From a bacterium (lineage in GTDB: Bacteria > Armatimonadota > Zipacnadia > Zipacnadales > Zipacnadaceae): a stretch of 64,000 nucleotides of DNA. Positions within the stretch are counted from its first letter, which is position 1; each line of letters starts with the position of its first letter. Shown piece by piece: positions 15,330-40,669 of this stretch. Location: NCBI GenBank assembly GCA_030603495.1, contig JAUVXR010000006.1, positions 20,124 to 84,123 on the forward strand, written 5' to 3'. The notes beneath the pieces were generated by a model. It did no database searches. It saw only the letters and a list, made by a program, of their open reading frames with translations, and was not told the origin of the DNA. Made by a program: the position numbers and the translations under genes.

Positions 15330-15605
15330 TTACTCGCTGGCAGCCTGGGCTGTTCCTGCTTGCCGCGCCAGTACTGACTTCTTGCGACCAGCGCGCCGGG
15401 GGTGCAATACACCAGCCTTGGTAGCCTTGTCAATGGCCTGATAAGCACGATTGAGGGCTTCCTGGGTCTCTTGCTCATCGCCGCTACGCACTCTCTCGAG
15501 GGCCGCGCGGGTGGCGTACTTGATCTGATCCTTGAACTGGCGATTGCGCCGTGTGCGCTTCGCCGTTTGGCGAATGTGCTTGTGCCGCGCCTTTATCTGA
15601 GGCAT
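15330..15605 (-). CDS. rpsT: Small ribosomal subunit protein bS20
   Basis: 91 residues, highly basic, with the N-terminal MPQIKARHKHIRQTAKRTRRNR helix and the KATKAGVLHPRRAGRKKSVLAR block that are signatures of S20, which binds 16S rRNA at the 5' domain. The ATG at 15605 is preceded by a purine-rich GAAAGAGAG. It has its own promoter with an extended -10 at 15677-15685. The plus-strand operon ends 20 bp from its stop, so the two converge. Confidence 0.96.
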   Translation of the reverse strand: MPQIKARHKHIRQTAKRTRRNRQFKDQIKYATRAALERVRSGDEQETQEALNRAYQAIDKATKAGVLHPRRAGRKKSVLARQAGTAQAASE

Positions 15606-15685: not shown

Positions 15686-15761
15686 CACCCACGCCAGTAA
15701 AAGCAAGCAGCCACACAGATCTGGGCTCAAGTGACTACGCCAGCTCACGGCCTCCGTCTGG

Positions 15762-15808
15762 AAAAATAGGCAGCCGAGCTCCCTTCGGGGCGGAAAAGAG
15801 CTCGGCTG
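15762..15808 (-). terminator. Strong intrinsic terminator of the candidate ncRNA
   Basis: Read on the minus strand: an 11-bp perfect stem (cagccgagctc/gagctcggctg), 16-base loop, then CCTATTTTT. It ends the transcript made from the promoter at 15986-16014, before the rpsT promoter. Confidence 0.8.
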
Positions 15809-15979
15809 TATTCTTGCTACCTACTGGCTTCAATGCTGTCTGTGTAACGTAGGTAGCTGAGGCCCGTAGACTCAACCTGCCAACAGATGAGGAGGCGATC
15901 TTTGCTGCGTCTCGGGCTGCATACACTGCTGCCGTTCGAGGCTTGTATATAGATATAGGTCCAGACTTATACAAGCTTC
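15762..15979 (-). ncRNA. Candidate free-standing structured RNA, about 218 nt
   Basis: Bounded by a consensus promoter and a strong terminator with no plausible protein inside. Stems seen on the minus strand, in order: 9 bp gcttgtata/tatacaagc (15968-15976 with 15941-15949); a hairpin closed by CTCG/CGAG (about 15915-15945); a middle stem near CTCA/TGAG; 9 bp gctacctac/gtaggtagc (15849-15857 with 15816-15824); and the terminator. It is not recognised as SRP RNA, RNase P RNA, tmRNA, T-box, cobalamin, TPP or FMN elements. Since its 5' end folds on itself, the 6S long-duplex layout also fits poorly. It could be an sRNA or a leader-type attenuator acting before rpsT. Confidence 0.55.
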
Positions 15980-15985
15980 TACATC

Positions 15986-16014
15986 ATTATAGCAACTCTC
16001 ACAGTAAATGTCAA
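15986..16014 (-). promoter_or_regulatory. Perfect sigma70 promoter of the candidate ncRNA
   Basis: Minus strand TTGACA (16014-16009), 17-bp spacer, TATAAT (15991-15986): 12 of 12 consensus bases with ideal spacing. The predicted start is near 15979. This is the strongest promoter in the window. Confidence 0.88.
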
Positions 16015-16058
16015 GGCCTATGCGAAACTTTTTTCGACCAGTACCAGCCCCCGGCTGG

Positions 16059-16991
16059 CTAGACCAAGTCCACACTCAGCAGCACCTTGTTCCCCACTCC
16101 CAGCAACCGCAGCACCCGTTCCGCGCCCCAAGTGATACTGCTGAGCAGCCCAGCGCCAACCTGCGACTCACCCAGCCCGTCGCTTACCGGCCCGGGGGGC
16201 AGGTCGAGGTATAGCCGCTGCTGGCGTACCCGGAGGTAGTCGCCGTGTATCATCTCCCTGAGGCGCACAGCAGACAGCCGCGTGGGTTCAATCCGTGAGT
16301 ACTCACGGCGGTGCGCCAGCCGGAGCCGGCCGAGCAGATTAAAGATGGCCCCGGTATAGGGCTCAATAATAACCAACCGGTGGCGAGCAACGCGCACCAA
16401 CTCGGCAAAGCCCACCGCCGGATCAGGGGTGTGGTGCAGCCCTGCCACAACGACAGCCAAGTCAAAACTGCCCTCGGGGAAGGGAAGATGAAGAACGTCG
16501 GCCTGCACATAGGGCACCTGGTAGCCCCTGGCGGCGGCGCGCTTGGCCAGGCCGCGCAGGGCTTGCGCAGAGAGATCCGAAGCAGAGACCTGGTAGCCCG
16601 CCTTTACCAGTGCTTCGACTTCATAGCCGGTACCGCAACAGGCGACGTGCACCGACCCCTTCTCAGGGAGACCCTCTGCCAGGGCTGCCAGCAGATGCCC
16701 CAGGCGCTCCTCCATGCGCCGGCGGCGGTAGCGGGGATGGAAATCCGGTTTAAAAACAGCCTTGTCGGGGAGCTGACCAAAATGCTCGTCCTGCCCGGCC
16801 ATCTCCTGCCGCCCTGCCGCTGACAGCCCGGCCCAGTCCACCATACGAGGCACACCGTCCGTGATAGCGTACGCTGTATCACATTCGGTGCACCGCAGCT
16901 CTCGTCTGTCGTGCCGCAGGTGTCCGCGGCAGGTCGGGCAGACCAGCAGGTCCAGGCGATCCCAGGTTGTCTCAGTCTCGTGACCGGCCAT
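16059..16991 (-). CDS. Class I SAM-dependent methyltransferase with N-terminal Trm112-like zinc ribbon
   Basis: About 310 residues from the ATG at 16991. The N-terminus has two CxxC pairs (VCPTC and RCTEC) of a Trm112/zinc-ribbon segment, then a methyltransferase fold: VHVACCGTGYEVEAL (motif I variant of GxGxG), YVQADVLHLPFPEGSFDLAVVVAGLHH (motif II/post I), and a C-terminal membrane-like tail. Such fusions methylate small molecules or lipids, and the substrate is unknown. An upstream TTG at 17078 would add 29 residues with no family match. It reads away from the protease gene. Confidence 0.8.
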   Translation of the reverse strand: MAGHETETTWDRLDLLVCPTCRGHLRHDRRELRCTECDTAYAITDGVPRMVDWAGLSAAGRQEMAGQDEHFGQLPDKAVFKPDFHPRYRRRRMEERLGHLLAALAEGLPEKGSVHVACCGTGYEVEALVKAGYQVSASDLSAQALRGLAKRAAARGYQVPYVQADVLHLPFPEGSFDLAVVVAGLHHTPDPAVGFAELVRVARHRLVIIEPYTGAIFNLLGRLRLAHRREYSRIEPTRLSAVRLREMIHGDYLRVRQQRLYLDLPPGPVSDGLGESQVGAGLLSSITWGAERVLRLLGVGNKVLLSVDLV

Positions 16992-17228
16992 GAATGGCAC
17001 GTCATCTATTTCGCCGCTCCGAGTAGCTATCCTGCCGCAGGAGCCAATTCGCTCGACCTCACAGGCAACAACAGCCAAAAAACAATGGGCTCAAGTTGCT
17101 CATTTCGGGAACCGAATGGACATCAAACACGTCCAATATAGGAATACCACAAGCAGCCAAGTACGGCGCGAGAGCATTCGCGCCTGTGTAACTTGGTGCC
17201 ATCTACCATAACAAGCCGATCTCGCGGG

Positions 17229-21915: not shown

Positions 21916-22270
21916 GGGGGCGAACTGGATTCGACGGGGAGCCAGTGCGTCACGGCTGCAGGCCGAGATCTCCGCTGCCTCGTAAAACGCGGAAAACAAT
22001 AACTGCCAATAACCAACTGGCACTCGCTGCTTAATCACTAAGCAGCACGTCCCCCCGGCCCCGCTAGTCGGGTTGGGGTGTGGCGTAATAAGATTAGCTA
22101 CTCGCTGGCGGCCGCTGGGACAGTCGGCGGGGAAACTTAATCCCAGATAGCTCCTGGATCAAGCCCGGTACGAGGGCTCATCAGGGGCGAAACCTAATAC
22201 TCGTACTAAGCCTGTAGAAGCTTTGTCGGCAGCTCTTCGGACGCGGGTTCGATTCCCGCCGCCTCCACCA
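21916..22270 (+). ncRNA. ssrA: Transfer-messenger RNA
   Basis: 355 nt. The 5' end GGGGGCGAACTGGATTCGACGGGG and the 3' tRNA-like end (GGGTTCGATTCCCGCC then CGCCTCC-A-CCA) pair as a 7-bp acceptor with one G-U. The tag frame resumes at GCC (22005) just after TAACT and reads A-N-N-Q-L-A-L-A-A-stop (TAA at 22032), so stalled proteins are tagged AANNQLALAA with the charged alanine. The GTAAAAC...AAAACAA lead-in before the resume codon matches the pattern in other bacteria. CCA is encoded. The gene is one-piece, not permuted. Confidence 0.97.
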
Positions 22271-40369: not shown

Positions 40370-40669
40370 AAATTGAAGCTGCAAAGACGATGACGGGGAG
40401 TAGTAGGCGCGGGGAGGATAACAGAGAGGTCGCTCCTGGCTGAAAGGCGACTATCCGAAGCGCACTGAAACTCGCCCCCGAGTCGCGGGCTGAACCGGCC
40501 CTCACTAGGCCCAAGTAGGTACCGACGGAGTTCCCGCCGTTACAAGGGAAGCGGTATCGGAGAGTTGTTGCTCTCCCGTGCCGTACAGAGCGGGCCGCTT
40601 CGGCGGCCAATTAGAGTGGTACCGCGGATTGCTTAGGTCTTCCGTCTCTTAAGAGATGGGAGGCTTTTT
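40370..40669 (+). promoter_or_regulatory. T-box riboswitch (leucine type) controlling leuA
   Basis: About 300 nt. The T-box itself is AGAGTGGTACCGCGG at 40613-40627 (consensus AGGGTGGNACCGCGG). Stem I starts near 40388 with GATGACGGGGAGTAGTAG, whose AGTA-type loop is typical. A candidate specifier CTC (Leu) lies at 40471-40473 after CTGAAA. The discriminator-pairing base of TGGT is T, which fits the A of tRNA-Leu. Uncharged tRNA-Leu would favour the antiterminator and let leuA be made. The terminator is at 40639-40669. Confidence 0.93.
40639..40669 (+). terminator. Regulated terminator of the leuA T-box
   Basis: A 10-bp stem (cttccgtctc/gagatgggag, with G-U pairs), TTAA loop, then GCTTTTTCGTTTTT. 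The 5' strand partly competes with the T-box antiterminator region. Confidence 0.88.

Follow-up and report, generated by a model that had tools for sequence, protein, structure and literature searches.

At one place in the 64,000-nucleotide stretch of DNA analysed here (the window), a promoter and an intrinsic terminator enclose a short unit upstream of rpsT in which no credible reading frame was noticed. What does this unit encode, and does it belong to any RNA class already known from bacteria? The preliminary description of the locus, made from the sequence alone, had proposed a free-standing structured RNA that is abundant and separate from rpsT. The organism belongs to Candidatus Zipacnadia (formerly candidate division WS1), a class of Armatimonadota; the class and the order have been described (PMC10290634). 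In the literature searched, text describing Zipacnadia mentions no noncoding or small RNA.

A compact predicted transcription unit with a stable fold

The features of the locus are collected in Table 1. The consensus promoter reported in the preliminary description was recovered exactly, with both hexamers and the 17-nt spacer matching, and the predicted +1 of the RNA gene is G15979 on the minus strand. The same description had given the terminator as an 11-bp hairpin with a T run. The T run is present and the base of the stem (H5) does consist of 11 perfect pairs (CAGCCGAGCTC/GAGCTCGGCTG, followed by CCTATTTTTC), but the full stem is longer than was stated, with 15–16 pairs (16 by the scan, 15808–15771). 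Both of the perfect 9-bp stems that had been claimed were found, one in H1 and one in H4, and a further imperfect stem, H3, lies between the two. Read from 5′ to 3′, the RNA begins with the 5′ hairpin, continues through the long imperfect central stem and the 9-bp hairpin, and closes with the terminator. Its predicted folding energy was −83.3 kcal/mol compared to −62.4 ± 4.5 kcal/mol for dinucleotide shuffles (z = −4.7), and 0 of 200 shuffles folded as well. That the RNA is transcribed and abundant remains an inference; the abundance is deduced from the promoter, and no transcript has been shown.

Table 1. Features of the RNA locus and its immediate neighbours (window coordinates).
Feature	Position	Strand	Remarks
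Upstream neighbour, class I SAM methyltransferase with Trm112-like domain	16059–17078	−	Outside the RNA gene
Sigma-70 promoter, TTGACA-17-TATAAT, 12/12	TTGACA 16014–16009; TATAAT 15991–15986	−	Promoter scan; also extended −10
Predicted RNA gene, about 215–218 nt	15762–15979	−	Fold z −4.7; one full-length homologue per genome in 36/41 order genomes
5′ hairpin H1, GAAGCUUGUAUA / UAUACAAGCCUC	15938–15979	−	Perfect 9-bp stem GCUUGUAUA/UAUACAAGC inside
Central stem H3, 13 pairs, imperfect	15862–15917	−	GCCCGAGACGCAGC (15917–15904) with GUUGAGUCUACGGGC (15876–15862); between both 9-bp stems
H3 apical part, GAU-CGCCUCCUC-AUC, C-rich loop	15886–15900	−	GCCYCC at the same place in most families
Most conserved sequence block, GGCAGGUUGAGUC	15869–15881	−	Consensus GC.CCCAGGCUGA
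Hairpin H4, GCUACCUAC / GUAGGUAGC	15816–15857	−	9-bp stem, 15857–15849 with 15824–15816
Terminator hairpin H5 and T run	15762–15808	−	Loop GCCCCGA at 15791–15785
Neighbour rpsT (ribosomal protein S20), own promoter	15330–15605	−	PF01649, E 6e-19; outside the RNA gene

Distribution of the RNA across Zipacnadia

Within the genus, a DNA and S20 protein search of 61 genomes, which like all genomes used here are metagenome assemblies, placed the RNA before rpsT with a TTGACA-17 promoter and a terminator in 7/7 genomes. A covariance model built only from these seven genus members (R1) gave full-length matches in 24 of the 41 order genomes, spread over five families, with E values down to 4e-18 outside the genus. 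Retraining on 17 sequences (R2) extended the RNA to 36/41 order genomes and all six families. Every one of the 19 order genomes that were ≥90% complete and ≤5% contaminated carried it, and the five genomes without a match were each 76–90% complete. R2 also matched, weakly, two more members outside the order and within the class (G042 and G041). A third model (R3, 29 sequences) confirmed the R2 members, including G019, G017, G022, G011 and G042, which had not been used in training, and weakly G041 (E 2e-4). Each genome held one full-length high-scoring copy; additional matches were weak, and several lay antisense over the same locus.

Beyond the class, the RNA was not seen in a phylum-wide search with R2 (291 genomes, only eight candidates per genome scored), a search of weak sensitivity whose sole match outside the class, in G086, was 36 nt long, the size of a terminator. 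R3 applied to 40 genomes around another class returned only short matches of 31–36 nt outside the order. With so few candidates scored in each genome, these searches are only a weak test of absence outside the class.

Covariation and upstream promoters

In the alignment of 38 sequences, 88.5% of pair cells held standard pairs. Cells in which both partners had changed numbered 325, compared to 102 ± 9 after shuffling and 36–63 when the partners were slid by one to three columns. Fitting the alignment to the structure inflates this count somewhat. Both controls (slid and shuffled), together with an earlier MAFFT alignment of the genus in which seven pairs showed compensatory change, nevertheless argue that the covariation signal is real. 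Beyond the terminator, H3 and H4 also contributed to the signal: H4 was 93% paired with both-side changes at all 8 pairs (38 sequences), and H3 (helices 1 and 2) was 84–88% paired with both-side changes at 10 of 12 pairs. H1, which takes the form GUAUAGG...CCUAUAC in relatives, was paired in 79% of cells, with a weak middle (24 sequences). The most conserved blocks of sequence were GC.CCCAGGCUGA, GCCYCC and the 5′ GU..AGG...ACAAA. The covariance search of relatives that the preliminary description had suggested as a check thus yielded homologues across the order, with abundant compensatory changes in the stems. In genus g3 alone (L106 and L116; G011, G008), the RNA is longer by ~45 bases, which lie in the region of the 5′ linker and central stem.

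The covariance models contain no promoter sequence. A sigma-70 site scoring at least 10/12 was present within ~80 nt upstream of 36 of the 38 homologues (11 or 12 in 25 of these), and the other two scored 9. Among equal-sized (83-nt) background windows, such a site occurred in 12 of 6279 (0.19%). The members outside the order had promoters of 12/12 (G041) and 11/12 (G042), and these strong upstream sites back the two weak matches.

Alternatives to an independent RNA family

Could the RNA act in cis on rpsT, as a leader or an attenuator? In 7/7 genus genomes its terminator ends 165–196 nt before the rpsT start on the same strand, as such an element might. This linkage, however, is limited to genus g1. 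The neighbours of the RNA are constant within families or genera and different between them, other genera and families carry it beside other genes, and rpsT is found elsewhere without the RNA. A terminator also closes the RNA, and rpsT is served by a separate conserved promoter, with a TATAAT (TGTGCTATAAT-like) ~75 nt before the ATG that was kept in 7/7 genus genomes; similar −10 boxes precede rpsT in other genera of the same family, where no copy of the RNA lies upstream of it. Two earlier assertions, that rpsT has its own promoter downstream and that the RNA is not simply the rpsT leader, accordingly held up: the −10 box is kept separately from the RNA, and the neighbouring genes change across other genera and families. 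We consider an rpsT leader highly improbable. Because the neighbours differ between families, a trans-acting role is most likely for the RNA.

The size, single copy and strong promoter of the RNA would fit a known class in divergent form (6S, SRP, RNase P or tmRNA), and an Rfam scan had been named as a check on this point. Rfam 15 contained no match to the locus at gathering score and nothing meaningful up to E = 10 (15700–16060), and no match for the RNA was obtained in 17 relatives. True 6S RNA (G000:C10:70377-70552, 78 bits) and SRP RNA (G000:C17:1425-1524, 75 bits) lie elsewhere in the genome, tmRNA lies elsewhere in the window (21916–22270), and RNase P is separate in the RNA-carrying relative L065. 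With 6S RNA (RF00013), the Zipacnadia RNA shares a length of ~200 nt, a single standalone copy and near-universal presence in its lineage; in 6S RNA one long stem, interrupted by a central bubble, joins the two ends, whereas the Zipacnadia RNA has a separate 5′ hairpin and a terminator hairpin. It resembles SRP RNA (RF00169) as a housekeeping-like single-copy RNA, but the locus has no match to the SRP model. Divergence from one of these classes is therefore very unlikely in our judgement. As a separate observation, the tmRNA gene carries the tag peptide ANNQLALAA, and a T-box leader is present at 40381–40652 of the window, above its gathering score (110.6 bits).

An open frame of 79 codons starting from TTG crosses the RNA in the window, as might be expected of the mRNA of a small protein, but this frame runs through the terminator, and what the homologues have in common is base pairs, not stops or frames. 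No conserved ORF was found among the homologues, in which stops fall in different frames, in agreement with the earlier view that the locus holds no credible ORF. A CsrA-type protein sponge would have several hairpins and a constitutive promoter, as this RNA does, yet ANGGA sites were fewer than expected (16 observed, 23 expected), as was GGA (98 compared to 111). Neither the small protein nor the sponge retains appreciable support. The lack of an Rfam match, the covariation, the promoters, the changing neighbours and the presence of the known RNAs elsewhere therefore indicate an independent, apparently undescribed RNA family, undescribed in the sense that neither Rfam 15 nor the literature searched contains it. 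We are highly confident that this family is real and undescribed.

Possible functions of the RNA

We tentatively propose, with a probability of roughly 0.4, that the RNA is a free-standing trans-acting noncoding RNA whose C-rich loops pair with the ribosome-binding sites of mRNAs; this function is inferred, and no target or transcript has been shown. The near-consensus housekeeping promoter would give a constitutive RNA, which its own intrinsic terminator would end. The central stem (CGCCUCCUC) and the terminator hairpin (GCCCCGA) would each present a C-rich loop at the tip, these loops may pair with purine-rich ribosome-binding sites, and the pairing could damp translation initiation of a gene set. 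The paired body of the RNA would presumably give protection. For rhizobial alpha-r14 sRNAs, whose hairpin loops bear CCUCCUCCC anti-Shine-Dalgarno motifs, an analogous mode has been proposed (PMC3927594, PMC10746234). The Zipacnadia RNA resembles these alpha-r14 (NfeR1) sRNAs of Rhizobiales in being a hairpin RNA that stands alone and bears pyrimidine-rich loops that could complement ribosome-binding sites. They have three identical CCUCCUCCC loops, whereas the Zipacnadia RNA has a single GCCYCC loop plus GCCCC in the loop of its terminator; no homology or Rfam match connects them, they come from different phyla, and the Zipacnadia RNA is single copy.

GCCYCC was located at RNA position 73–81 in 21 homologues and, shifted to 66, in one further copy (G004); families f6 and f4 have CCCCC at its place, and the terminator loop is CCCC or UCCC in nearly all members outside f5. 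Only the position of these words is conserved, as C-rich words were not enriched compared to dinucleotide shuffles (CCCC, 73 vs 73; CCYCC, 39 vs 36). Several findings count against anti-Shine-Dalgarno pairing: the central-loop GCCYCC is lost in the sister species G002, G003, G005 and G006, f5 is without a C-rich terminator loop, CCCCC pairs imperfectly with GGAGG, and no Hfq was found in several good genomes that carry the RNA. The gene as a unit of DNA, its fold, covariation, single copy, order-wide presence and independence of neighbours are observed.

Alternatively, a housekeeping ribonucleoprotein specific to the lineage may be built around the RNA, which would serve a major machine as scaffold or regulator. 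The role of the RNA would then be comparable to that of 6S, SRP or Y RNA, its descent would not, and the GC.CCCAGGCUGA block and a repeated GCAGC motif would be protein-binding sites. This reading is favoured by one copy in every good order genome and a near-consensus promoter everywhere; near-perfect promoters in all species are more in keeping with a housekeeping RNA than with one that is regulated. It is further favoured by the strongest conservation lying in an asymmetric internal-loop block and not at the tips of the loops, by the occurrence of GCAGC in 66 places compared to 26.5 in shuffles, and by retention of the RNA in carriers where Hfq was not found. The Hfq search found none in several good RNA-carrying genomes (G009, G012, G015 and G017). 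On the other side, there is no protein partner or linked protein gene, and the neighbours differ between families. We hold the ribonucleoprotein and the anti-Shine-Dalgarno reading to be close, each no more than possible. That the RNA is an unknown housekeeping RNA, order-universal like 6S or SRP, forming a ribonucleoprotein with a function that has no known bacterial RNA counterpart, appears rather unlikely to us.

Over the order as a whole, Hfq was found in 27/41 genomes, with none in families f2 and f4 or genus g4, where some genomes are >90% complete. This pattern amounts to patchy loss or divergence within one order.

To our knowledge, order-universal bacterial RNA genes without an Rfam family are rare, and most lineage-wide abundant RNAs belong to a known handful. 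The present case also shows that a core RNA can go entirely unnoticed in an uncultured lineage. Because a covariance model, 38 sequences and a clean transcription unit are in hand, the RNA can be searched for at once in metatranscriptomes. Homologues from family f5 (e.g. L109:4482-4692) contain another AUCAGC stretch, which can pair with the same GCUGAU as does the conserved CAGC. Two alternative central stems are possible in this family, and a conformational switch is conceivable.
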